A stretch of 44,110 bases of DNA from Melioribacteraceae bacterium (GTDB lineage Bacteria; Bacteroidota; Ignavibacteria; Ignavibacteriales; Melioribacteraceae): the NCBI GenBank assembly GCA_016927595.1, contig JAFGMI010000001.1:1-44110 (forward strand). The letters run 5' to 3'. Both the position numbers and the translations under genes were made by a program. A model generated the notes under the pieces. That model ran no database searches. It was not told where the DNA came from and saw only the letters and a program-made list of their open reading frames with translations. Positions within the stretch are counted from its first letter, which is position 1, and every line of letters starts with the position of its first letter. Shown piece after piece: positions 3,551 through 17,959 of this stretch.

Positions 3551-6500
3551 CTATTCTTTAGTAAATATTTTATAGAGCACCGGCACAACAAGTAATGTAA
3601 GAAATGTCGAAACTGAAAGACCGCCGATAATAGTCCAGCCCATCGGTCCCCACAATGCACCCCCGCTTATTGTCAGCGGAAGCAGACCACCTATTGTGGT
3701 TGCGGTTGTAACAATAATCGGTATAAACCTGGTTTCACATGCTTTAACTATTGCATCAGCCAGTTTAATGCCTTCGGCACGGAGCTGGTTCGTGTAATCG
3801 ACAAGAATTATCGAATTGTTAACTACTATTCCAACAAGACTTGTTAAACCGACAAATGCCAGGAATGAGAAAGAGTAACCGGTAATAAGAAGAAACACTA
3901 TAGAACCGATTAGAGCTAACGGAATAGCTGTAAAAACAATCAACGGCTGCGAGACCGAGTTAAATTGCAGAACAAGCACGGCGATTATTCCGAGCATGGC
4001 AATCAGTATTGCTTTAGACATATCCCCGAACGATTCTTCTCGTGTTTCTACTTCACCCGCAGCATTATAACTATATCCCTTCTGCCAGTTAAAACTATCA
4101 AGCTTATTAATGATTTCCTGTGTAGCTTCATTTACCGAAACGTCGGTTTCAACATCAGCCGTGATAATTACATTCCTTTCCAGATTGTAATGATTTATTG
4201 TAAGAGGACTTGAAACAAACTCCAGCGATGCAAGATTCGATAACGGGATAAGCGCCCCGCTCATTGAAGAAATATAAATTTTCGATAAATCTTCGAACTT
4301 TGTTTTATCTTCGACCGGAAGTCGTAAAACGATATCGTACTTTTTGCCGTCATCATCAGTAAACTCCGAAACCGTCAATCCGTTTACTGCGGCACGTACT
4401 GTTCTGTCAATCTCTATTATCGGGACGCCCAGCATGGAAGCCTTTTCACGATTAATGCTTATCTTTAAATCAGCTTTTGTTGTCTTAAGCGGATTATTAA
4501 CATTTATTACTCCGCCCGTTTCTCTCATAAGTTGTTCAACATCAAGAGATATGGCTCGAAGTTCATTAATATTTTCACCAAGAACTCTTATCGCAATCGG
4601 CGCATCAATGGGCGGACCCTGTTCGAATGTTTTTACGGTTATATCTGCACCCGTAATACCGCTTACTTCTTTTCTAACCTCCGATACAACTTTTCCCAGA
4701 ACTTCATCATCGAATTCTTTCAACTCAACAAACACCTGTGCATAATGCGCGGTTTCATTCCTTTGAACAGTGTTATAATATACCCGTGGATTTCCCTTAC
4801 CGATATTTGTTGTAAACACTTTAATCTCATCTCTACCGCTTAAAATTTCTTCAACCTGCCGTGCAACGCGGTCTGTTTCATCCAGATTAGTACCACTCGG
4901 TAATTCTATTTCAACCAGAAACTGTGGTCTGTCGGATTTAGGAAAGAAGCTTACACCTACCAGCGGAAACAACCCGAGACTTACCAAAAAAAACATGACT
5001 GCAAAGGTTATGATAAGTTTTGGTCTTGCCAGTGCAAAGCTTAACCTGGGTTTATATATATTCTCGATAAATTTGTCCAACGCCTTTCTCACATAATTTC
5101 TTTCTTCTCTTTTATGTGCTTTTATAAACCTGCTGGACAGGTAAGGAGTAAGGGTAAGAGATAAAAGTAATGATGAAAGAAGAATATAAACTACAATCAG
5201 AGGCATACTTCGTATAAAATCTCCTGTTACATCGCCGATTAATATCACAGGAACAAACGCCAGAATAGTAGTAACGGTGGAGCTTGTTATTGCCCATCCT
5301 ATTTGTGATGTGGCTTTGGATGCCGCCTCTTGTGGGGAGTATCCATCGTCCATAAACCGGCTGATATTTTCAGTTACGACTATCGCATTGTCAACAAGAA
5401 GACCGAGAGATATTACCAGTCCCGCTATTGTTATCTGTTGTATCCCGTAACCGCTTAAGTCTATAAAAAATATTCCCATCAAAATTGAAACGGGTATTGC
5501 CAGCATTACAATTAATGACGGTCGTAATCCGACGGACAAAAACACAACTAACCCGACCAGAACCAAGCCCTGCAGAAGATTAATAAAAAATCCGTTCAAA
5601 CGATTCGTAACATTCCTTGTCTGATCTATTACAATCTGTAGCTCCATATCGGCAGGAAGATCATTTTTGAACTTATTCATTTCTGCTTTCAATCCATCCA
5701 TTACATTATAGATGTTTGTTCCCGCTTTCTGAGTGGCGGTAATAAAAACAGATCTTTTACCGTTTGTTCTGGCAAAATATTCATTATCGCGGTAATCAAA
5801 CGAAATATCCGCAACATTTTTAAGGCTTACATTTTTACCGGCATAAGAATTAATAACAATATTCTCTATCTGCAAAAGATTTTTAAAACTTCCGCTTGTC
5901 TTTATATTGAATTTCTTCCTGCCTATATCAATATCACCGCCCGGTATATTCGAGTTTTCAGTTACGATTCTATCAATTACCGATGCCAGCGATATATTTA
6001 AAGCAGCCAATCGTTCCATGTCAACAGAGATTCTCACTTCCTGCTCCGGGTATGCCATTACTTCAATCTTTTTAATATCGCGGACTTTTTCCAGCATTGA
6101 TTGCAGTCTTTCCGCTTCATACTGCATATCCGAATACCCGGCATTTTCCGAAACCAATGCCGCCTGCAAAATGGCAACATCCGTACTTTCCCACTTCATA
6201 AATTTTAATGAATAGATCTGATCGGGCAGTTCGCTTTCTATCCCGTTAACTTTCTGAATAACATCCGAATATTTTTCGGACGCATCGCTCCCCGCAATGA
6301 ACTCAATTGAAATTACTGCAAGACCGTCGCGCATATTGGATTCGATTTCTTTTATATCACTTAATTCATTCAATTCGGTTTCGATTTTATCAACTACTAA
6401 TTCTTCCATGTCCTTGGGAGTTGCACCCGGATATATTATAATAACGCTCGTTCCGGGAGGAGTAACCTGCGGATCTTCACTCCTGGGCATGTTTAGAAAA

Positions 6501-6583
6501 GATGATATACCGAGTGCGATGAACAACACAAAGACTATCGAAGTAAACTGATGATTTTTAATTGCCAATCCGGGTAATCTCAT
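3551..6583 (-). CDS. RND-family efflux transporter permease
   Basis: This 1010-residue inner-membrane protein has the AcrB-superfamily plan. TM1 lies near residues 14-31, a large periplasmic loop follows to about 330, TM2-6 span about 331-480, TM7 is near 523-545, a second periplasmic loop follows, and the last TM group spans about 857-1006. The TM4 motif is GLLVDNAIVV, with D398 matching the first AcrB proton-relay Asp and N399 replacing the second. TM10 reads GIVVNNSIILVDY, with N922 where AcrB has Lys. This resembles HAE1-like pumps outside the AcrB clade, though the substrate cannot be told from sequence. It is the last gene of the operon, 17 bp after the membrane fusion protein. It would export small hydrophobic compounds using the proton gradient. 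Confidence 0.92.
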   Translation of the reverse strand: MRLPGLAIKNHQFTSIVFVLFIALGISSFLNMPRSEDPQVTPPGTSVIIIYPGATPKDMEELVVDKIETELNELSDIKEIESNMRDGLAVISIEFIAGSDASEKYSDVIQKVNGIESELPDQIYSLKFMKWESTDVAILQAALVSENAGYSDMQYEAERLQSMLEKVRDIKKIEVMAYPEQEVRISVDMERLAALNISLASVIDRIVTENSNIPGGDIDIGRKKFNIKTSGSFKNLLQIENIVINSYAGKNVSLKNVADISFDYRDNEYFARTNGKRSVFITATQKAGTNIYNVMDGLKAEMNKFKNDLPADMELQIVIDQTRNVTNRLNGFFINLLQGLVLVGLVVFLSVGLRPSLIVMLAIPVSILMGIFFIDLSGYGIQQITIAGLVISLGLLVDNAIVVTENISRFMDDGYSPQEAASKATSQIGWAITSSTVTTILAFVPVILIGDVTGDFIRSMPLIVVYILLSSLLLSLTLTPYLSSRFIKAHKREERNYVRKALDKFIENIYKPRLSFALARPKLIITFAVMFFLVSLGLFPLVGVSFFPKSDRPQFLVEIELPSGTNLDETDRVARQVEEILSGRDEIKVFTTNIGKGNPRVYYNTVQRNETAHYAQVFVELKEFDDEVLGKVVSEVRKEVSGITGADITVKTFEQGPPIDAPIAIRVLGENINELRAISLDVEQLMRETGGVINVNNPLKTTKADLKISINREKASMLGVPIIEIDRTVRAAVNGLTVSEFTDDDGKKYDIVLRLPVEDKTKFEDLSKIYISSMSGALIPLSNLASLEFVSSPLTINHYNLERNVIITADVETDVSVNEATQEIINKLDSFNWQKGYSYNAAGEVETREESFGDMSKAILIAMLGIIAVLVLQFNSVSQPLIVFTAIPLALIGSIVFLLITGYSFSFLAFVGLTSLVGIVVNNSIILVDYTNQLRAEGIKLADAIVKACETRFIPIIVTTATTIGGLLPLTISGGALWGPMGWTIIGGLSVSTFLTLLVVPVLYKIFTKE

Positions 6584-6600
6584 TTCACGTCCTGCTTAAA

Positions 6601-7638
6601 TTACTGCTGATTAGTTTTTATTTTACTTCCTTCCTGTAAATATTCAGCCGATTTCGATACCACGATCTGACCGTCTTCCAATCCTCCGGATATATAAACA
6701 ACATCATCGTTCAAAGCTTTAATATCTACACATGTTTTTTTGACATGATTGTCATTATCCGGAACAAATACATTTGCTCTGCGACCTTCAGCATCAACAA
6801 GCGCTTCAATAGGCAGTACAATCAAACTCTCCTTAATCGATGGAATAATTTTTATTTTGCCTATAAAACCCGAAGCAAGTTTTTCTGTTGTGGGTGTTAG
6901 TTCCAGTTTTACTTCGTAAGTACCTGTTCTCGGATCGGCTCCCTGACCTACTTCTATAACTCTTGCTTCAAACGGATTTTCGGGATAAGCGTCGAAATTA
7001 ACCAACGCCGAATCTCCGATGGATATTTTTATAATGTCGATATCTGATATGCCTGTACTTATTTTCCATCTATCGGCAGCGCTCCCGAAGAGTAATACAG
7101 GATACCCGGCATTTGTTATTTCGTTTTCTTCAGAAATAATTCTCAATATTTTACCATCCGAAGGAGCTTTAATTACCGAGTATTCCCTGTTGAATCTGGC
7201 AATTTTAAAATCGGACTCGGCAACATCCAAAGCCGTTTTCATATTCTGAAGCTGCTCGAGGGTTGCCACTTTTTCATTATATAAATTTTGAATCCGTTCA
7301 TAATCGCGCTTTGCTTTCTCCACTCCGTTCCTCGCTTTCGAGAAATTCGCATCAATCTCATCCTGTTTAAGAGACGCCAGAACATCTCCTTCTTTGACGG
7401 ATTGTCCTTGTTTTATATGTATAGATTCAATTATTCCCGGAATTTTAAAAGAGAGTGAAGATTCTTTTGATGCGCTGAGTTTTCCGGTTGCTCTTAACGG
7501 AACCGAAACCTGTTTTACGGCTGCTTTTGTAACGTCAACTAAAACAACGTTTTCAACAGCTTCTGTTTCGGGTTCTTCCCTGCACGAGCCAAGAAAAACA
7601 ATTAGAATTACAATTACCGTATTAAATAATAATTTCAT
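6601..7638 (-). CDS. RND efflux periplasmic adaptor (HlyD/MFP family) lipoprotein
   Basis: The 345-residue protein begins with a lipoprotein signal ending LGSC (Cys19), so it is expected to be anchored to a membrane. A biotinyl-lipoyl-like half-motif (IKQGQSVKEGDVLASL, about 75-90) is followed by a coiled-coil hairpin (about 92-140). The second half-motif (IKAPSDGKILRI, about 157-168), a beta-barrel and a membrane-proximal domain follow, which is the standard MFP order. It bridges the RND pump and the TolC-like channel. It begins 14 bp after tolC and ends 17 bp before the permease, consistent with one transcript. Confidence 0.93.
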   Translation of the reverse strand: MKLLFNTVIVILIVFLGSCREEPETEAVENVVLVDVTKAAVKQVSVPLRATGKLSASKESSLSFKIPGIIESIHIKQGQSVKEGDVLASLKQDEIDANFSKARNGVEKAKRDYERIQNLYNEKVATLEQLQNMKTALDVAESDFKIARFNREYSVIKAPSDGKILRIISEENEITNAGYPVLLFGSAADRWKISTGISDIDIIKISIGDSALVNFDAYPENPFEARVIEVGQGADPRTGTYEVKLELTPTTEKLASGFIGKIKIIPSIKESLIVLPIEALVDAEGRRANVFVPDNDNHVKKTCVDIKALNDDVVYISGGLEDGQIVVSKSAEYLQEGSKIKTNQQ

Positions 7639-7652
7639 CTCTACTCCGATTA

Positions 7653-9026
7653 TTAATTTTCCTGATCGGCAAATATTAAATTGTATCCCGCAGTAGCTCT
7701 TTCTAATCCGGCACAGCTTATAAGGAAATCGTACTTGCTTATCACTTCGCTGACAGATGCTTCCGTGAGCCTAGTCTGTGCGTCAATTAGTTCTATCTGT
7801 GATACGAGATCGTTTTCATATTTTTTTAGTATTATTCTGTAAGATTCTGCTGCACTTTTTTTTCTTTTTCCTGCAGCAACCTGTTTTTCCATATTTACTC
7901 TGAGGTTTTCTAAAATATTTCTGGTCTGCAGAAGAATTGATCTCTCAAGTTCACGGTACTTTGCATTTAGTTCTTTCTTATCTAATTCAGCCTGCTCTAC
8001 TCTCGCATTATCCTGCATACCGTTAAACAGGTTCCACTGCATTACGATTGATGCCATCCAGTAATCATCGTCTTTTGTAAAACTATATTCTTCACCCTGA
8101 TAACCGTAATCCACTGCGAGCACAGCCCCCGGCAGATATGCTGATTTGCTAAGCTTAATTAAATTTTCAGATGCGTCTAAAGCAAAGCTCAGCTGTTGTA
8201 GTTCTTCCCTGCCGTTGATCGCTCTTTCAAAAAGGAAATCCTCTTTTTCAATATCTATTGCAGAGCTTGCTTCTTCTTTAACAATAATTTCAGCATCAAA
8301 TGGTCTGTTTAGTAAGAAATTGAAATATGATTTTGCTATATCCCTGTTTTTCAGCGCTTCCGCCTTGCTTTCTATAATCTCAGCAAGTTCTGATTCTGCT
8401 CTGTAAATTACTTCCATTGTTACTTTTTCATTTTGGAATAAAATCTTACTTACACGCAGGTTCTCTTCAACCAATTTTTCAGCATCGTTAATAATTTCCA
8501 GCACCTTAATTGTTTTAGCATAATTGTAGTAAGATGTTTTAATTTCTTTTACAAGTTCTCTTGCATAAGCGTTTCTCTCGGCTTTCTGTAGTGACTTTAA
8601 GTCCGACTTGATCTTATAATTGAAGTATATTTCAGGCTTAAAAACCGGTTGGATCAAACTAATTTTTGTTTCATGCTCCGTCTCTCTAAGAAACGGAATT
8701 GTTTCATTCGGAATATCGGTGGGGTAAACCGGTTGCCCGATTATATAGTTTAAGCCATTGTAAATCGGGTTAACCATATCTCCTATCGGGACATCAATCG
8801 TTCTTCCGCCGCCTGCCCTGGTGTATCGTGCATTAATGCTTAGTGACGGAAAAAACAGTCCTCTTGCTTCGCTTAATGCTGAAACGCTTTTGCTAAAAGA
8901 GAACTCTTTCTGCTTCATCGTGAGGTTGTTCTTCAGTCCTTCCATTATATAACTTTCAAGAGGAGTTGTTTGTGCAACGACTTCACTTAGCAGTAATAAT
9001 AATATCAGAGCTCCGGATTTATACAT
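7653..9026 (-). CDS. TolC-family outer membrane efflux protein
   Basis: This 457-residue protein has a cleavable signal (about residues 1-18, ending VVAQ) and the two-repeat OEP organisation. Long amphipathic helices rich in Glu, Lys and Ala lie around 30-60, 140-260 and 330-440, separated by beta-strand segments such as LSINARYTR and VLAVDYGYQGEEYS. It would trimerise into the outer-membrane channel of the tripartite pump encoded by the next two genes. GGAG lies 7 bases before the ATG. A 15-bp palindrome sits 32-46 bp upstream of the start, suggesting this gene has its own repressible promoter. Confidence 0.93.
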   Translation of the reverse strand: MYKSGALILLLLLSEVVAQTTPLESYIMEGLKNNLTMKQKEFSFSKSVSALSEARGLFFPSLSINARYTRAGGGRTIDVPIGDMVNPIYNGLNYIIGQPVYPTDIPNETIPFLRETEHETKISLIQPVFKPEIYFNYKIKSDLKSLQKAERNAYARELVKEIKTSYYNYAKTIKVLEIINDAEKLVEENLRVSKILFQNEKVTMEVIYRAESELAEIIESKAEALKNRDIAKSYFNFLLNRPFDAEIIVKEEASSAIDIEKEDFLFERAINGREELQQLSFALDASENLIKLSKSAYLPGAVLAVDYGYQGEEYSFTKDDDYWMASIVMQWNLFNGMQDNARVEQAELDKKELNAKYRELERSILLQTRNILENLRVNMEKQVAAGKRKKSAAESYRIILKKYENDLVSQIELIDAQTRLTEASVSEVISKYDFLISCAGLERATAGYNLIFADQEN

Positions 9027-9057
9027 TTTTTCTCCAAATTATAGTACTGTTTAATAA

Positions 9058-9072
9058 ATGACTATAAGTCAT
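9058..9072. promoter_or_regulatory. Candidate TetR operator upstream of the tolC-type gene
   Basis: ATGACT-ATA-AGTCAT is a perfect 15-bp palindrome in the 65-bp gap between the regulator and the tolC-type gene. Its half-site, (A)TGAC/GTCA(T), recurs upstream of tetR at 9747-9768, as expected for sites bound by the same dimeric repressor. Binding is inferred. Confidence 0.6.
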
Positions 9073-9091
9073 AAAACAGATAAAAAATATA

Positions 9092-9730
9092 TCACTCAGC
9101 TTTAAGAGAGTGATAAGTGAAATTCATGAAATACCGAATCATCTCTTCCGGATCAACATCAAAATGGCTATCAAGAACGTGACCCTTCAATGTAAAAAGC
9201 TGAAGAATTCCCGACGTTTCACCCCATAAAAGCAGTGCGGTTTTTTTAGGATCAATATCTGCACGAATTGAGCCGTCGTCAATTCCCTCTTTAATCACAT
9301 TTATGAATAAATTCATAACATCTTTATTCTCGCTAAAAGCTTTAATTACTGTTCCCATTTGTAAATTGTCATTAATTTCTAACTGACTGAAAAATAACAG
9401 TGCCCGGTAATAGTTCGGATATTCTTTATTAAACTTAATGTAAGCTTCCCCAATTGCACGCGTCTTGCACAATCCGTTTGGTTCACCCGAAATTCCCTTT
9501 TCGAACAAATCCTTCAGAAGCCTCATCGCTTTTAATACTATCTCAAGATAAATTTCCTCCTTGCTTTTGAAATATATATAAAGCGTCCCTTTGCTTAATT
9601 CAGCTTCTGCGGCAACATCATCCATTGTCGCATTCGAAAAACCCTTAGAAAAAAACACTGATTCAGCCGCATGAATTATTTCCAGCCTCCGCTGCTCTTT
9701 CTCTCTCTCTCTTCTTTCAGCTATTCCCAT
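9092..9730 (-). CDS. TetR/AcrR-family transcriptional regulator of the efflux operon
   Basis: The 212-residue protein has the TetR N-terminal HTH at about residues 33-56 (MDDVAAEAELSKGTLYIYF), preceded by a basic arginine-rich segment. The all-helical C-terminal ligand domain (about 65-212) is divergent, as usual. It lies immediately upstream of the tolC-MFP-RND genes on the same strand, so it probably represses them and itself, with release by a pump substrate. AAGGA lies just before the ATG. Palindromic sites sharing TGAC/GTCA half-sites are found before this gene and before the tolC gene, supporting local autoregulation (inference). Confidence 0.9.
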   Translation of the reverse strand: MGIAERREREKEQRRLEIIHAAESVFFSKGFSNATMDDVAAEAELSKGTLYIYFKSKEEIYLEIVLKAMRLLKDLFEKGISGEPNGLCKTRAIGEAYIKFNKEYPNYYRALLFFSQLEINDNLQMGTVIKAFSENKDVMNLFINVIKEGIDDGSIRADIDPKKTALLLWGETSGILQLFTLKGHVLDSHFDVDPEEMIRYFMNFTYHSLKAE

Positions 9731-11550: not shown

Positions 11551-12597
11551 TTGAGCGAAGAAAATCAGAAAGACGATAGCCAACATAGGAAACCCAGACG
11601 AAGATACTATTCGCGAAACAGATATTACAAGAAGAAAAATGTTCCAGACCAGGCGCAATCAGATAAATTTTCATTCCGAAAAATTTCAATTCTGATTCCT
11701 TTGTTAAATGAAGAGGAATCGATTGAACCATTATACAATGAAATTAAGAAGTCATTAACAAAAATTGATTCCGATTACGAAATATTATTTATAGATGACG
11801 GGAGCAGTGACAGATCCCTGGAAATTATAAAGAAGTTACAGAGCATTAATAATAAAATAAGATATATAAGTTTCAAGAAAAATTACGGTAAATCGGCTGC
11901 TTTACAGGTCGGCTTTAAAAGCTGCCGCGGCGATGCAGTAATTACTATGGATGCTGATCTTCAGGATGATCCTGCAGAGATTCCGAACCTGCTTAAAAAA
12001 CTGGACGAGGGTTTTGATCTTGTTTCGGGATGGAAAAAGAACCGACAGGATCCTTTTATTAAAAAGCACACATCAAAACTTTTTAATTATGCCACGAGAT
12101 TATTCAGCGGAATAAAAATTCATGATTTTAACTGCGGACTTAAAGCCTATAGATCCGATGTTATTAAGCGGGTTAATGTTTACGGAGAGCTTCACAGATA
12201 CGTACCTGTACTGGCAAAGTGGGAAGGATTTTCCGTTACAGAAATACCGGTAAAACACCATCCGCGAAGGTATGGAAAAACAAAGTTTGGCATCTCAAGA
12301 TTTTTCAAAGGTTTCGTCGACTTAATAACCGTGGTGTTCACAACCAGATATGTAAAACGTCCCATGCATCTTTTTGGCTTTCTAGGTGCTCTGGCATTTT
12401 TCCTGGGAATAGTTGTTAATGCATATCTTACGTGGGAATGGTTCAACGGAGTACCATTGAAAGACAGACCAGTTTTATTCTTAGGGATTTTATTGATTAT
12501 AGTAGGTGTACAGTTTTTTGCTGTGGGGCTGCTGGGCGAACTTATTGCTCATAATTTCCATGATGATAAAGAATACAACATTAAGGAAAAAAAATAA
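11551..12597 (+). CDS. GT2 glycosyltransferase, GtrB/dolichol-phosphate mannosyltransferase type
   Basis: The 348-residue protein opens with a basic tail (HRKPRRRYYSRNRYYKKK within residues 1-45) that lies before the usual fold. A GT-A domain follows with ILIPLLNEEESI, FIDDGSSD and the metal/nucleotide motif DADLQDDP. Two C-terminal transmembrane helices lie at about 270-295 and 308-332. Relatives transfer a sugar from a nucleotide donor to a polyprenyl phosphate at the cytoplasmic face. The TTG start at 11551 is supported by AAGGCGG about 8 bases upstream. It is the first gene of a plus-strand series ending with the amidotransferase. Confidence 0.88.
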   Translation: MSEENQKDDSQHRKPRRRYYSRNRYYKKKNVPDQAQSDKFSFRKISILIPLLNEEESIEPLYNEIKKSLTKIDSDYEILFIDDGSSDRSLEIIKKLQSINNKIRYISFKKNYGKSAALQVGFKSCRGDAVITMDADLQDDPAEIPNLLKKLDEGFDLVSGWKKNRQDPFIKKHTSKLFNYATRLFSGIKIHDFNCGLKAYRSDVIKRVNVYGELHRYVPVLAKWEGFSVTEIPVKHHPRRYGKTKFGISRFFKGFVDLITVVFTTRYVKRPMHLFGFLGALAFFLGIVVNAYLTWEWFNGVPLKDRPVLFLGILLIIVGVQFFAVGLLGELIAHNFHDDKEYNIKEKK

Positions 12598-12617
12598 TAG
12601 ATAAAGATTCATTATTA

Positions 12618-13646
12618 ATGTCTTACCGGTATTTATTTACTGTTATTATCCCGACCTTTAACAGAAGTGAAGAAATAAGCGAGCTTCTTAAATCGCTTTC
12701 TGAACAGTCGTTAAATCACGAAGAGTTTGAAGTTATAATTGTCGATGACGGCTCAGATGATAACACCGGATCTGTTGTTAACAATTTCATCAATTCTTCC
12801 GAAATTAATACCAGATTCTTAAAACAGGAACATAAAGGACCCGGCGAGGCTCGTAATTACGGTATGGATAACGCTCTGGGGGAATATATATTATTCATAG
12901 ATAGTGACTGTATTGCCGATAAAGACTGGCTGTTAAATATAAAAAAAACAGTTGTGGACAAAAAGCCAGCCGGATTCGGCGGTCCCGATAAAGTGCTTCC
13001 CGGTTTTTCACCAATGCAGAAAGCGATAGATTATTCAATGACCTCATTCATAACAACCGGGGGAATAAGGGGTCATTCAAGGAAAAAAATCTCAAAATAT
13101 TATCCGCGCAGTTTTAATATGGGCGTCCGTAATGATATAGTTAAAAAAATCGGCGGAATGAATAAACTCAGGCACGGTCAGGATATTGAATTTACAAACA
13201 GAATTATTAATACAGGCGAACCTGTTATCAGAATTGAAGACGCTGTAGTGTATCATAAGCGGCGTATTTCAATCAGAAAATTTTTCCGACAGGTTTTTAA
13301 CTGGGGTGTGGCACGTATAAACTTATACAAAATCGATAGTAAAATGCTTGAGCCCGTTCATTTTTTACCTGCTGCCGGAACAATATTCTTATTCGTAATT
13401 ACAGTTCTTACAATTATTTTACCCTCAGTCTTTATATGGTTTATTCTTGCCGGTATGCTGGTATTGTTTGCGATGGGAATTCACGGCGTAATAAAATATA
13501 AAGATCTAAGAGTTCTCATACTGATACCCGTGGTCGTTCCCACACAGATTGTCGGCTACGGTTCTGGTTTTATAATGGCTTTTTTAAGACGAATAGTCCT
13601 TGGTAAAGACGAATTTACCGGTTTTACAAAAAGATACTATAAATAA
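12618..13646 (+). CDS. GT2-family glycosyltransferase with C-terminal membrane helices
   Basis: A 342-residue protein with an N-terminal GT-A domain: VIIPTFNRSEEI (about 9-20), IIVDDGSDD (about 40-48) and the DxD-like FIDSDC (about 93-98). The acceptor-side motif HGQDIEFTNRI lies near 183-193. Two or three hydrophobic helices at about 253-320 anchor it in the inner membrane. It starts 21 bp after the previous gene. The specific sugar is not predictable. It likely extends the glycan assembled by this cluster. Confidence 0.87.
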   Translation: MSYRYLFTVIIPTFNRSEEISELLKSLSEQSLNHEEFEVIIVDDGSDDNTGSVVNNFINSSEINTRFLKQEHKGPGEARNYGMDNALGEYILFIDSDCIADKDWLLNIKKTVVDKKPAGFGGPDKVLPGFSPMQKAIDYSMTSFITTGGIRGHSRKKISKYYPRSFNMGVRNDIVKKIGGMNKLRHGQDIEFTNRIINTGEPVIRIEDAVVYHKRRISIRKFFRQVFNWGVARINLYKIDSKMLEPVHFLPAAGTIFLFVITVLTIILPSVFIWFILAGMLVLFAMGIHGVIKYKDLRVLILIPVVVPTQIVGYGSGFIMAFLRRIVLGKDEFTGFTKRYYK

Positions 13647-13739
13647 CAAAAAAGCAATTGTATTATGTGAGTTTAATTGTAGGTAGTATGATAATGAATT
13701 AGTTCAAATCGATATTTAATAACGAGAAACTTAACGTAG

Positions 13740-15011
13740 TTGAAAAAAGTGTTGATCATAACATACTACTGGCCGCCTTCCGGAGGTCCGGGTGTTCAGA
13801 GAGTATTAAAGTTTGCAAAATATCTTCCGCAATTCGGATGGATGCCGATAATACTTACGGTTGAAAAAGGCAACTACCCGGATTATGATAAATCGTTGAT
13901 GAATGAAATACCAAACGGCACAAAAGTTTATAAAACAAAATCGTTCGAACCATTTGAAATTTATAAATCAATGACAGGGAGAACCGGTTCAGATAGAATT
14001 CCAACATTCGAATTAAATAAAAAAAACAGGTTAAGTGCCGTTGAAAAATTATCAAGGTGGCTTCGTGCAAACGTATTTATCCCTGACGCTAAAATCGGGT
14101 GGACCAGGCACATTGAATCAGAAGGTTTAAAAATAATCGAAGAGGAAAAACCGGATATCATCCTAAGCTCATCTCCGCCTCATTCGCTGCAGATAGGGGC
14201 AATGAAACTGGCTCAGAAAAGTGGTGTTAAATGGGTCGCCGATTTCAGGGATCCCTGGACCAACGCATTCTGGCAAAAGGATCTTAAACGTTCGGGGTTT
14301 GCATTATCCAAAGACAGAAAGATGGAACACGATGTTCTTTTTAATGCTGATAAAGTTGTCGCCGTCAGCAGTACTATTGCTTCCATGTTTGAGATAATTG
14401 CTTCGAACAAAACCAGGGTAATAACCAACGGTTTTGATCCCGAAGATTTTCAGACTGCAAAGGTAAAGCGGGATAAGTTTACTATTACATATACGGGTAC
14501 ACTGGGTGAATCTCAGAAAATCGACAACTTTATAAATGCTATAAACGGATTGAACGATTCAATTAAAAATGAGATTGAAATAAATTTCTTCGGTTCGTTC
14601 CACCCATCCATTTTAAGCTTGCAGGACAAATGTAGAAATATAAATTTTTATAACAGCATACCACACGATCGGGCTGTTCCGGAAATAATTAATTCCGACA
14701 TTCTACTTCTGGTTATCCCATACGCTAAAGAAAATAAGGGAATACTTACGGGAAAGTTGTTTGAGTATATGGCAACCGGAAATTTCATACTTGGAATAGG
14801 TCCGGTCAGCGGCGAAGCTGCATCCATTCTTAATGAATCAGGAAGCGGTAACATGTTCGATTACGGTGATGATCTTGGCGAAATAATTTTAAGTAAGTTC
14901 AATGAATGGAAAAACGGCATCGGATTTTCAGCCGACAAGGAAAAGATAAATCGTTACTCGAGAATAAACACGACGAGTCAGCTTATTAATGTTTTCGAGG
15001 AGCTTATATGA
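13740..15011 (+). CDS. GT4-type (GT-B fold) glycosyltransferase
   Basis: The 423-residue protein starts with the signature ITYYWPPSGGPGVQRVLKFA (residues 6-25) of a large group of GT4-like enzymes in polysaccharide clusters. The N-terminal Rossmann domain is followed by a C-terminal donor domain with ITYTGTLG (about 243-250) and the acidic/Gly region near KGILTGKLFEYMATGN. The start is TTG; no closer ATG would preserve the motif. The stop overlaps the next ATG by 4 bp (ATGA), which couples it to the C5-epimerase. Confidence 0.86.
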   Translation: MKKVLIITYYWPPSGGPGVQRVLKFAKYLPQFGWMPIILTVEKGNYPDYDKSLMNEIPNGTKVYKTKSFEPFEIYKSMTGRTGSDRIPTFELNKKNRLSAVEKLSRWLRANVFIPDAKIGWTRHIESEGLKIIEEEKPDIILSSSPPHSLQIGAMKLAQKSGVKWVADFRDPWTNAFWQKDLKRSGFALSKDRKMEHDVLFNADKVVAVSSTIASMFEIIASNKTRVITNGFDPEDFQTAKVKRDKFTITYTGTLGESQKIDNFINAINGLNDSIKNEIEINFFGSFHPSILSLQDKCRNINFYNSIPHDRAVPEIINSDILLLVIPYAKENKGILTGKLFEYMATGNFILGIGPVSGEAASILNESGSGNMFDYGDDLGEIILSKFNEWKNGIGFSADKEKINRYSRINTTSQLINVFEELI

Positions 15012-16012
15012 AATTAAAAAAAACAATATTTATGCTGTTTAAGATCATAAGTGATATTACCAGTACCAAAGAACCGTATAAAATTGCTTATGATGTGCAG
15101 TCTGAGAACTTGAGAGAGTATTATTTTCTGTTCGAAGAGAATCCGCGTAAATTGAATAAACTGATAACAGATTTCGATAAATATGGTATTCCGGTAAACA
15201 ACGCTTATATAGATGTTGCTAAACCGAAAACTCATTATTACCCCATTACTATTGGTCAGTACGGTCTGGCGGTTTTTCATACTTATTTAAAGACCAAATC
15301 CGCCCAAAAGAGAAATCACTTTCTCAGAATTGCAGATTGGTTTTACGCCAATAGAATTGAAGATTCAAAATTAGGTACTTTCTGGCTTACAGATATTCCG
15401 AAGCCTGAGTATAACATACGCGTTCCCTGGAAATCAGCATTTGCCCAAAGCAGGGCAATCTCAGTTCTTTTGCGGGCATGGCAGATCACGGGGGATAAAA
15501 AATATCTGCAGACCGCATCATCATCACTAATACCTTATACGTTCGATTACAATAACGGTGGTGTTTCAGCATTTACAAAGCATGGTAAGTTTTACGAGGA
15601 ATATGTGGCAACGGAACCAACGATGGTACTTGACGGTCATATTTTTTCAATGCTGGGATTATACGATTATTTTCGTGCAGTACCGAAGAATATTGAATTG
15701 AGTTATAATAAGCTTGCAAAGAATTTATTCGACGAGGGGGTAATTTCGCTGATAAATTGGCTTCCGGAGTATGATTTGGGTTACTGGCTTCGGTTCAACA
15801 TGTGCAGAATGAGTCACTATCCCGATATCGATCCGTGTACAATTGGTTATTTTAGATTAGTGTGTTTGCAACTGAAGCTGCTTCTTAAAATTACAGGCAA
15901 ACAAGAAATAAAGAATTTTCTGGAAAAGATTAAAAATTATGATAATGCAAAAAATATAATCAGAATGTACCCGGTAAAATATAAAGCGTTAAAACAATTA
16001 AACAGGTTATAG
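15008..16012 (+). CDS. D-glucuronyl C5-epimerase C-terminal domain protein
   Basis: This 334-residue protein lacks a signal peptide and matches the all-helical C-terminal catalytic part of glucuronyl C5-epimerases (Glce_C, PF06662). Visible features are a YYPITIGQYGL segment (about 77-87), the helical repeat WKSAFAQSRAISVLLRAW, and the hallmark EPTMVLDGHIFSMLGLYDY (about 203-221). An aromatic-rich DLGYWLRFN (about 255-263) follows. The family converts GlcA to IdoA in a polymer. GAGGAG lies directly before the ATG, which overlaps the preceding glycosyltransferase stop. It probably edits a uronic acid in the cluster's glycan; the substrate is inferred. Confidence 0.85.
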   Translation: MKLKKTIFMLFKIISDITSTKEPYKIAYDVQSENLREYYFLFEENPRKLNKLITDFDKYGIPVNNAYIDVAKPKTHYYPITIGQYGLAVFHTYLKTKSAQKRNHFLRIADWFYANRIEDSKLGTFWLTDIPKPEYNIRVPWKSAFAQSRAISVLLRAWQITGDKKYLQTASSSLIPYTFDYNNGGVSAFTKHGKFYEEYVATEPTMVLDGHIFSMLGLYDYFRAVPKNIELSYNKLAKNLFDEGVISLINWLPEYDLGYWLRFNMCRMSHYPDIDPCTIGYFRLVCLQLKLLLKITGKQEIKNFLEKIKNYDNAKNIIRMYPVKYKALKQLNRL

Positions 16013-16015
16013 AAA

Positions 16016-17959
16016 GTGTGTGGAATAGCAGGAATAGCAGAAACGGGAAAGGATAACCGAAAGTTGATGGATCGTATGCTCGACATGATATCGCACCGCG
16101 GTCCGGATGCAGTTACACAGTTCGCGAATGGAGATGTCGTTCTGGGTCACAGAAGGCTTTCTATAATTGATCTTAATACTGGCGATCAGCCTATGTTTAA
16201 CGAGGATAAATCGCTCTGCATAATATTTAATGGAGAAATTTATAATTATAAAAACCTGAGAGAAATATTAAGAAAAAAGGGTCATGTTTTTGCAACGGAC
16301 AGTGATACGGAAGTTCTGCTGCACGGATACGAGGAATTCGGACACGATTTATACGCTAAGCTTAATGGAATATTTGCCTTTGCACTATATGATATTCGTA
16401 AAGATAAAATCGTGTTGGTGCGGGATCAATTCGGGGTTAAACCTCTTCATTATTATTTCAGGAATAATTTATTCGTCTTTGCTTCAGAGCAGAAATCCAT
16501 TTTGCTGCATCCCAGTATTGAACGAAAACTAAATCTTAACTCCCTTCATTCGCAGATAAATCTCAGATACACACAGCGGGATGAAACTTTGTTTGAAGGT
16601 ATCAGACGTCTTCCGCCGGCACATTTTCTGGAGTTTAAAGAAAATAGTGTTTCAATTAAAAATTACTGGCAGCTTGTTCCGGAAATAAAAAAAAGCATGA
16701 GCGAAGGCGATGCGATTGAGGGGATAAATTATTATTTGAAACAGGCTGTCGGACGTCAATTAATGAGTGATGTACCGCTGGGAGTATATCTGTCCGGCGG
16801 AATGGATTCCTCCGCAATCGTACAGAAAATGAGTGAACTCGGTGTAGACAACATTAATACTTTTACTTTAGGATTCAATGAGCCGACCGACGAGTTTCCT
16901 GATTCTGAACTGATAGCCAGACAGTTCAATACAAATCACAGAACACTGAGTTTATCGATGGAACCGCTCCGATTTATGCCCGAAGTGATCTGGCATGCAG
17001 AGGAACCGAAAATTAATCTGCTTCAGGGTTACAATATGTCAGGGTTTGTCGGTGAACATGTGAAAGTAGTACTCGGCGGCCTGGGAGGCGACGAGCTTTT
17101 TGCGGGTTATGATATTCATAAATTTATATTTCCCTTCAATAACTGGCACAGACGAATTCCAGATTGGATGAAAAAAATTGCTCAGTGGAAATCGGATTTA
17201 TTGTTTAGGCTGCAAAATTCTTCACACACATTCAGCCTTGATGAATACCGGCGCGGGATACAAATGCTGCTGTCAATTGGAAACATTGAGAAGTTTTATC
17301 TCATACTGCGCAACGTATGGGACTTCGATAAAGATTTCTATAAGGAGATTTATCACCCTGATATTTACCGTAAAATGCTGTCGGAAACAGATCGTGTTGA
17401 AGATCAGTTTGCTCCATTTTTTAACAAGGTTAAAGACCTTTCATCCCTCGATCAGGTTTTATTTACAGAATTTCATTCTAAAATGGTAAACGATTATTTG
17501 CTGGTTGAGGACAGAATGTCGATGTCGCACTCTGTTGAGGAACGCGTACCGTTTCTTGATATCGATCTTGTTAACTTCGGTTTTTCGATACCGGTACATT
17601 TGAAAATCAAAAATAATCAGACCAAATATCTGTTCCGTAAGGCAATGAAGGGAAAGCTGCCGGACAAGATAATAGAAAAGAAAAAATGGGGATTTACAGT
17701 AAATCCTTACCTGCAGTTTAAAAAGGATTTAAGAAACACCGCCGGGAAACTTTTAACTAGGAAATACATTAACGAACAGGGAATATTTAACTATAACTAT
17801 ATCAGAAAAATTCTTAATTATCCTCCCAATCCCAGGTTAAGATGGCATTATAATTATATATGGGTTTTATCCGGTTTAGCGCTGTTGGACAAACTGTTTA
17901 TTACTACGGATAATTTTATTGATCGGAAATTCGAGCTTGAGGAATATTACAATATATAG
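16016..17959 (+). CDS. Asparagine synthase (glutamine-hydrolysing) family amidotransferase
   Basis: The 647-residue protein has an N-terminal class II glutaminase with Cys2 as nucleophile (MCGIAGI) and SHRGPD near 26-31. The C-terminal synthetase domain carries the PP-loop SGGMDSS (260-266) and GGLGGDELFAGYD. Both halves look intact, so it can move ammonia from glutamine to an ATP-activated carboxylate. The start is GTG at 16016, forced by the need for Cys2. It begins 3 bp after the C5-epimerase. Clustered paralogues of this family in surface-glycan loci can amidate uronic acids, so the acceptor may be a sugar carboxyl rather than aspartate (inference). At 647 residues it is longer than E. 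coli AsnB (about 554). Confidence 0.88.
   Translation: MCGIAGIAETGKDNRKLMDRMLDMISHRGPDAVTQFANGDVVLGHRRLSIIDLNTGDQPMFNEDKSLCIIFNGEIYNYKNLREILRKKGHVFATDSDTEVLLHGYEEFGHDLYAKLNGIFAFALYDIRKDKIVLVRDQFGVKPLHYYFRNNLFVFASEQKSILLHPSIERKLNLNSLHSQINLRYTQRDETLFEGIRRLPPAHFLEFKENSVSIKNYWQLVPEIKKSMSEGDAIEGINYYLKQAVGRQLMSDVPLGVYLSGGMDSSAIVQKMSELGVDNINTFTLGFNEPTDEFPDSELIARQFNTNHRTLSLSMEPLRFMPEVIWHAEEPKINLLQGYNMSGFVGEHVKVVLGGLGGDELFAGYDIHKFIFPFNNWHRRIPDWMKKIAQWKSDLLFRLQNSSHTFSLDEYRRGIQMLLSIGNIEKFYLILRNVWDFDKDFYKEIYHPDIYRKMLSETDRVEDQFAPFFNKVKDLSSLDQVLFTEFHSKMVNDYLLVEDRMSMSHSVEERVPFLDIDLVNFGFSIPVHLKIKNNQTKYLFRKAMKGKLPDKIIEKKKWGFTVNPYLQFKKDLRNTAGKLLTRKYINEQGIFNYNYIRKILNYPPNPRLRWHYNYIWVLSGLALLDKLFITTDNFIDRKFELEEYYNI

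Follow-up and report, generated by a model that had tools for sequence, protein, structure and literature searches.

A GlcE-family epimerase homologue with two exchanged active-site residues, encoded beside an AsnB-type amidotransferase in Melioribacteraceae

The window analysed in this work is the entire contig C17 (44,110 bases) of a Melioribacteraceae genome of 3.85 Mb in 59 contigs (G000). Its subject is a cluster of five genes, in which three glycosyltransferase genes are followed by EPI, encoding a predicted homologue of the glucuronyl C5-epimerase GlcE, and by ASN, encoding an AsnB-type glutamine amidotransferase. The new feature, as judged from aligned proteins, is a paired change of two residues that are key in human GlcE (N510D and Y560F, human numbering) in the candidate GlcE-family epimerases encoded next to ASN. 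The preferred reading, tentative and short of probable, is that the five genes form the cytoplasmic part of a pathway for a lipid-linked surface glycan, in which EPI and ASN would make an epimerised uronamide on the same residue.

Results

Fold and exchanged residues of the epimerase homologue

EPI scored 126.4 bits on PF06662, against a gathering score of 23.3. An AlphaFold model, built from 27 aligned homologues, reached a mean predicted local distance difference test (pLDDT) score of 93.7, and a Foldseek search with this model returned eight matches under E 0.001, all of them GlcE (E 3.4e-11 to 6hzz). Compared with human GlcE in complex with substrate (6i01) the model gave a VIA Z of 33.5 over 297 residues at 3.9 Å, against a VIA Z of approximately 15 for the next families, GH76 and cellobiose 2-epimerase. 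Structure prediction had been proposed as a check in an earlier, sequence-only reading of the window, and the predicted fold of EPI is that of the GlcE catalytic domain. By fold and descent the protein is assigned to the GlcE family, with a putative epimerase activity.

The key residues of human GlcE are listed as E499, Y500, N510, Y560 and Y578 in the available text of PMC13308652, with Y578 described as the base and E499 as the acid in that of PMC12834895. According to the accessible part of PMC12561193, Y560 belongs to a set of three sites that were selected as critical to the activity of the human enzyme and mutated to Phe. The equivalent residues of the window EPI are E198, Y199, D209, F263 and Y281, with Asp in place of N510 and Phe in place of Y560. 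To follow these positions a residue table of 34 homologue rows plus the human sequence was used, from which L030 and L032 had been removed (genomes the same as L018 and L068); L069, whose protein is identical to L036, was also removed from the column test, the control groups and the EPI tree. E499 and Y578 are retained in 34 of 34 rows and Y500 in 29 of 34. Position 510 is Asp and position 560 is Phe in all five ASN-linked rows, and both are the human Asn and Tyr in the other 29 rows (28 distinct). The sequence-only reading had named loss of the catalytic residues as a finding that would count against it, and the loss is partial: E499, Y500 and Y578 are kept in the ASN-linked proteins, and N510 and Y560 are replaced.

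Among the 28 homologues that are not ASN-linked, 39 columns are at least 85% conserved, and the only ones changed in all five ASN-linked proteins are N510D and Y560F. Four of the five key residues lie among these 39 columns, so that the chance of both changes falling on them is 6/741 = 0.008, a figure worked out after the result had been seen and covering one lineage. Seven other groups of rows, partly overlapping, served as a control and were treated in the same way with the ASN rows excluded from the conservation background. None of the seven carried a change at 510 or 560. Their fixed changes at conserved columns numbered 2, 0, 2, 1, 1, 21 and 1, where the 21 belong to the divergent group f32 and L072/L074 have their single change at the key residue Y500. 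A pair of fixed changes on key residues thus appears unique to the ASN-linked group among the groups tested. Residues 582 and 584 of the ASN-linked proteins also differ from human, and both columns vary elsewhere.

In the EPI tree the ASN-linked proteins and those followed by a methyltransferase gene (MT-linked, described below) form sister groups (support 99/97 and 99/98), the latter including three Neomarinimicrobiota proteins with other neighbours. Given this sister relationship N510D/Y560F arose once, and its link with ASN, as one evolutionary event, is suggestive and not proof. The two altered active-site residues suggest a new substrate for EPI. They might also mean that the ASN-linked EPI has lost its epimerase function and helps ASN as a binding or scaffold protein, or as another uronate-active enzyme such as a lyase. 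Such a loss of function would fit the replacement of two of the five key human residues (as listed in the available text of PMC13308652) in five of five proteins, the human-unlike residues 582 and 584, and the selection of Y560 as critical for activity in work that replaced it by Phe in human GlcE (PMC12561193, available part). It is nevertheless considered unlikely: all five proteins retain Y500 together with the acid (E499) and the base (Y578), five genomes carry an intact gene of full length, and the structural model is of high confidence.

Gene order and the exchange of partner genes

The five genes of the cluster are as follows.

GT2a, 11551-12597, + strand: polyprenyl-phosphate sugar transferase of the ArnC/GtrB/CsbB type, with a basic N-terminal extension (PF00535, E 4e-33)
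GT2b, 12618-13646, + strand: membrane-attached family 2 glycosyltransferase (PF00535, E 7e-30)
GT4, 13740-15011, + strand: GT4-like glycosyltransferase (PF13439, E 5.7e-08)
EPI, 15008-16012, + strand: GlcE-family C5-epimerase homologue of 334 aa (PF06662, E 1.2e-36)
ASN, 16016-17959, + strand: AsnB-type glutamine amidotransferase (PF00733, E 4.1e-70; PF13537, E 7.8e-44)

GT2a and GT2b are separated by 20 bp and GT2b and GT4 by a looser 93 bp; GT4 and EPI share a 4-bp ATGA overlap, and 3 bp lie between EPI and ASN. Open reading frames and Pfam matches bear out the order of three glycosyltransferases, PF06662 gene and AsnB-type gene, with the overlap and the 3-bp gap, that had been read from the letters. 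A simple hydropathy scan, made with no signal-peptide predictor, gave two C-terminal hydrophobic segments in GT2a, three near the C terminus of GT2b and none in GT4, EPI or ASN, and the last three are for this reason probably cytoplasmic. The best solved relative of GT2a is the ArnC-type 8vxh (E 9.7e-56), and GT4 has no solved relative at E 1e-5.

Of 395 sampled genomes of the phylum, 13 encoded EPI; within the order the count was 24 of 164, 12 of them in the window's family (f1), 11 in a second family (f2) and one in a third (f3). Neighbourhoods were compared for 23 of these 24, leaving out G493, an f1 fragment at a contig end; the f1 counts cover 11 EPI-bearing genomes, with G495 read as L031 (identical coordinates). 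The run GT2a-GT2b-GT4-EPI is complete in 8 of the 11; in G501 and G507 a contig end cuts it short, and in G482 a gene for a glycosyltransferase of the GT-C class is inserted. The search for the same gene order in relatives, suggested together with the sequence-only reading, hence found it, and the run is a conserved module of the window's family whose order is beyond chance. The 4-bp overlap between GT4 and EPI recurs in L018, L019, L020, L021, L031, L067 and L068, with a longer overlap of 20 bp in L071.

The gene 3' of EPI is ASN in five of the 11 f1 genomes (G000, G059, G495, G485 and G507), the spacing in the four other than G000 being 1, 1, 1 and 4 bp. In the remaining six (G113, G120, G031, G500, G501 and G482) it encodes a methyltransferase (MT) of approximately 250 aa, one copy having been identified by Pfam scan and the others by BLAST or length. 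Since ASN alternates with MT directly after EPI, both occupy one slot. The solved relatives of MT are weak (best E 9.2e-07), for which reason to call it a carboxyl methyltransferase is a guess. A YfhO-like membrane protein of approximately 825 aa comes next in two ASN and five MT genomes, and its gene lies on a separate contig in G000 (C33), G059 and G495. Downstream of it G000 and G059 have a GT4 gene and then a methyltransferase gene, as does G120, where the run extends into a gene for a Wzx-type flippase. The YfhO-family copy of G000 has 12 hydrophobic segments in the hydropathy scan. A Pfam scan of 28 window proteins gave no match to a Wzx/Wzy-type flippase or polymerase family, in agreement with the sequence-only reading. 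Its further claim that the system is incomplete holds for the window, and pieces lie elsewhere, the YfhO-like GT-C gene on C33 and, in the same run of the relative L020, the Wzx-type flippase.

All 11 EPI loci of f2 carry an O-antigen-ligase-type protein and 10 of them a MurJ-type flippase; an SLBB export protein is encoded in 6, with several loci ending before the expected position. These neighbours were assigned by BLAST to L023 except for those of L023 itself. Because the f1 module and these flippase, ligase and export neighbourhoods are found together with it, EPI is placed in surface-glycan synthesis. A full AsnB-type gene is present in four of the 11 f2 clusters and a divergent one in two more. 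A rule that an AsnB gene nearby predicts N510D was tried and rejected: f2 clusters with an AsnB-type gene keep N510 and Y560, and as this holds in four of the 11 the presence of AsnB does not require N510D/Y560F.

These four clusters favour an arrangement in which the two enzymes have separate target residues within one glycan, EPI epimerising an ordinary uronate and ASN amidating another uronic acid, with N510D/Y560F tuning EPI to its own sugar (e.g. a diacetamido uronate) and unrelated to amides. Retention of E499, Y500 and Y578 and the single switch event would fit as well. Against it stand the immediate adjacency of EPI and ASN at 1-4 bp in five of five genomes and the position of both changes on listed catalytic residues (the post hoc 0.008 above), and it is held to be a somewhat unlikely explanation.

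Several further observations were made around EPI. Neomarinimicrobiota EPI proteins, 46-47% identical, include one in L033 (2601-8242) whose gene is grouped with those for PGA_cap, DUF819 and FMN-binding proteins, a glycosyltransferase gene being absent next to it; L035 (1760-5528) has the same layout by size, its FMN-binding gene alone having been scanned. L071:11368-13350 encodes a 660-aa fusion of a polysaccharide deacetylase (PF01522) and a C5-epimerase (PF06662) two genes from a stand-alone EPI, which recalls the order of heparan sulfate modification, N-deacetylation and then C5-epimerisation. A Fic-domain protein is encoded immediately upstream of the cluster in L031 (2424-3494). EPI had no relatives in viral contigs and three matches on plasmids, two from Priestia and one from Deinococcus, the Priestia relative retaining the TLNG and TYDL forms. 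AsnB relatives on plasmids were at most 35.1% identical among the 30 matches listed of 516 records. Elsewhere in the window, positions 3551-9730 encode an AcrB-type pump and an HlyD-type adaptor and then, as named from their translations with no database search, a TolC-like outer-membrane protein and a TetR-like regulator.

Identity of the amidotransferase

ASN has the MCGI N terminus with its N-terminal Cys, the GHRRLSI and NGEIYN motifs of the glutaminase and an SGGMDSS PP-loop. Where true AsnB has GEG(S/A)DE, all five ASN proteins read GLGGDE. The Glu of GEGSDE, the catalytic E348 of E. coli, is hence Leu in five of five, and in other non-AsnB relatives it is Asp, Gln, Thr or Glu. On the broad model TIGR01536, ASN passes with 442.4 against a cut-off of 267.1. 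It scores 420.9 bits (E 1e-125) on TIGR03108 (eps_aminotran_1), below the cut-off of 816.9, where a Vibrio XrtA-system member scores 960.1. On the AsnB model PRK09431 / NF006949 it reaches 301.3 bits, below the cut-off of 499; the same model gives 925.9 for the true AsnB of G113 and 1050.3 for that of E. coli, both of which score approximately 244 on TIGR03108. In the ASN tree G113 and E. coli AsnB are separated from ASN (100/99), with L043 beside them on a long branch. The tree left out the duplicates L037 and L047, the too divergent L033, L045, L073 and L075, and proteins extracted at under 400 aa (L039, L040, L042, L044, L046 and L048), and hence the AsnB-like proteins of G062 and G009.

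By its motifs and scores ASN is an AsnB-type amidotransferase distinct from the housekeeping AsnB; the clustering with housekeeping AsnB that would have spoken against the sequence-only reading was not found. One might still suppose ASN to be the cell's own asparagine synthetase, placed in a glycan operon by chance, as no other full AsnB homologue was found in G000 and ASN passes TIGR01536. This is very improbable, given the failure on PRK09431, the branching away from both E. coli AsnB and a true AsnB of the same family, and the Glu to Leu replacement in five of five. G120 and G031, moreover, have no AsnB homologue at E 1e-10 and possess asparaginyl-tRNA synthetase (AsnS) and GatB, from which it follows that the window's family does not need AsnB; G000 also carries AsnS and GatB. 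In G113, a genome 99% complete, AsnS is present and no full GatB was found, the search giving a relative of 654 aa and a frame of 124 aa.

Divergent AsnB-like proteins of 609-622 aa were seen in or beside EPI clusters at L033:5882-7750, L073:4415-6244 and L075:13233-15062. Their N termini are without the MCG start that bears the glutaminase Cys, and one such gene stands directly after EPI in a Neomarinimicrobiota contig.

Candidate sugar substrate and type IX secretion

G000 encodes two full nucleoside diphosphate (NDP)-sugar dehydrogenases, both under the equivalog cut-offs, one scoring best on the TuaD-type UDP-glucose dehydrogenase model and the other on UDP-N-acetylmannosamine (UDP-ManNAc) dehydrogenase models. 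In L067 the run after ASN and the GT-C gene reaches homologues of WbpB (3oa2, E 4.7e-105) and WlbB (3mqg, E 7.1e-60). Contig C8 of G000 holds WbpB and WlbB homologues 62% and 71% identical to these, beside the second NDP-sugar dehydrogenase, whose best score is 266.2 against an equivalog cut-off of 459. In the Wbp pathway WbpB and WlbB serve the synthesis of UDP-2,3-diacetamido-glucuronate. The wbpB/wlbB homologues of L067 are the clearest clue to the substrate and point to 2,3-diacetamido uronates instead of the heparin-like glucuronate and iduronate to which the sequence-only reading alluded, and which find no support as such. WbpB occurs in five of five ASN genomes, in three of six MT genomes and in seven of 15 genomes of the same family without EPI, and is on account of the latter two groups no marker of the module.

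In Porphyromonas gingivalis, WbpS (PGN_1234) turns a sugar of the 2,3-diacetamido-uronate class into the uronamide, which links type IX cargo to lipopolysaccharide, as described in the available text of PMC7468200. G000 has a PorU-type sortase (966.7 bits against 420) and 97 sorting-tail matches at E 0.001. The type IX secretion system (T9SS) was searched for in EPI-bearing genomes (8 and 11 genomes) and, as these were the only ones covered, is treated as context. Among the papers listed in a literature search on Melioribacter or Ignavibacteria with type IX secretion and glycosylation, none, as judged by its listing, treats this subject.

Discussion

The established parts of the uronamide reading are the gene order, the families, the fold, the residue changes and the partner swap; the substrate, the order of steps, the catalysis and the final location of the glycan we infer. 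GT2a would charge undecaprenyl phosphate with a sugar, which a YfhO-like GT-C enzyme would add at the periplasmic face. Periplasmic addition is a likely part of the scheme, because GT2a resembles ArnC and YfhO proteins are the GT-C partners of ArnC-like enzymes in Gram-positives (PMC8035078, available text). GT2b and GT4 would assemble the chain on a lipid carrier, and this chain would contain a uronic acid, most likely the 2,3-diacetamido-2,3-dideoxyhexuronic acid of the Wbp pathway. With glutamine hydrolysis ASN would convert the C6 carboxyl to the uronamide, and EPI would invert C5 of the same residue to give an L-ido or L-gulo uronamide. N510D/Y560F would then mark a shift from carboxylate to amide recognition, in which a side-chain amide facing a carboxylate is exchanged for a side-chain carboxylate facing an amide. 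The C5-H of an amide is more readily removed than that of a carboxylate, and Y560 could therefore become dispensable. The surface polymer with epimerised, possibly amidated uronates that had been proposed is thus supported in part: the glycan module, the GlcE-fold homologue and the non-housekeeping amidotransferase stand, and its sugar chemistry is putative.

The adjacency of EPI and ASN, at 1-4 bp in five of five genomes of one clade, argues for the uronamide reading. So do the alternation of ASN and MT in one slot, the two changes on key residues, the retained acid and base, the low AsnB score of ASN and the WbpB and WlbB homologues of L067 and G000. A number of points weigh against this reading. 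The recognition step presumes a contact of N510 with the substrate carboxylate. Divergent groups not infrequently show fixed changes at conserved columns, and N510D/Y560F, as one event in one clade, provides a single instance of linkage to ASN. Four of 11 f2 clusters contain another AsnB-type gene, and their EPI retains N510 and Y560. ASN falls short of the TIGR03108 cut-off, and WbpB is not specific to the module, lying beside EPI-ASN in L067 alone. Finally, Y560 of the human enzyme, mutated to Phe, had been picked as activity-critical (PMC12561193, accessible part). A more specific form of the uronamide reading, in which EPI is a uronamide C5-epimerase re-tooled by N510D and Y560F for a substrate pre-amidated by ASN, and the L-ido/L-gulo diacetamido uronamide belongs to the glycan anchoring T9SS proteins of Melioribacteraceae, is improbable as a whole.

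Related systems are known. EPI is like the GlcE family (PF06662; human GLCE; RED65_08024 of Bermanella marisrubri) in fold, PF06662 match and E499, Y500 and Y578; unlike the animal enzymes it is, at 334 aa, too short for extra domains, and compared with the human sequence it carries N510D/Y560F in this clade. ASN resembles WbpS, PGN_1234 and WbqG (TIGR03108) in AsnB-like architecture, glycan gene context and suggested sugar class, but lies below the cut-off of that model and has GLGGDE where the Vibrio XrtA-system member has GDGGDE. The linking sugar of T9SS cargo made by the Wbp/Vim system of P. gingivalis is similar in its uronamide logic, and in the sortase and sorting tails of G000; the available text of PMC7468200 names WbpI and a predicted epimerase, BFO_2566, and no GlcE-family enzyme. 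The Vibrio cholerae exopolysaccharide VPS contains an L-gulo uronic acid amidated with glycine, for which C5 inversion has been proposed (PMC3901696, available text). An epimerised amidated uronate thus has a precedent in a bacterial polymer with C6 amidation, although the amide there is with glycine, not ammonia, and the epimerase only proposed. CsbB-GtcA-YfhO and ArnC-ArnT, systems of several components for transmembrane glycosylation (PMC8035078, available part), correspond to the ArnC-like GT2a and the YfhO-family membrane protein of the module, except that the GT-C gene of G000 is on another contig. Agl32 of Halobacterium salinarum is a reported C5-epimerase acting on a lipid-linked short glycan; the available text of PMC13308652 reports no GlcE catalytic residues in Agl32, whereas EPI retains three of five. 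No description of a GlcE-type C5-epimerase paired with an AsnB-type amidotransferase was found in the literature search, as judged by its listings.

GlcE-type epimerases are wanted for heparin synthesis, where the reading of the substrate matters. A natural clade with two catalytic-site changes and an adjoining amidotransferase offers a two-residue test of how the carboxylate is read. If EPI and ASN do make an epimerised uronamide, this would be a route of sugar modification not found in the literature searched, and it would sit in a bacterial group with numerous type IX secretion signals in its genomes.

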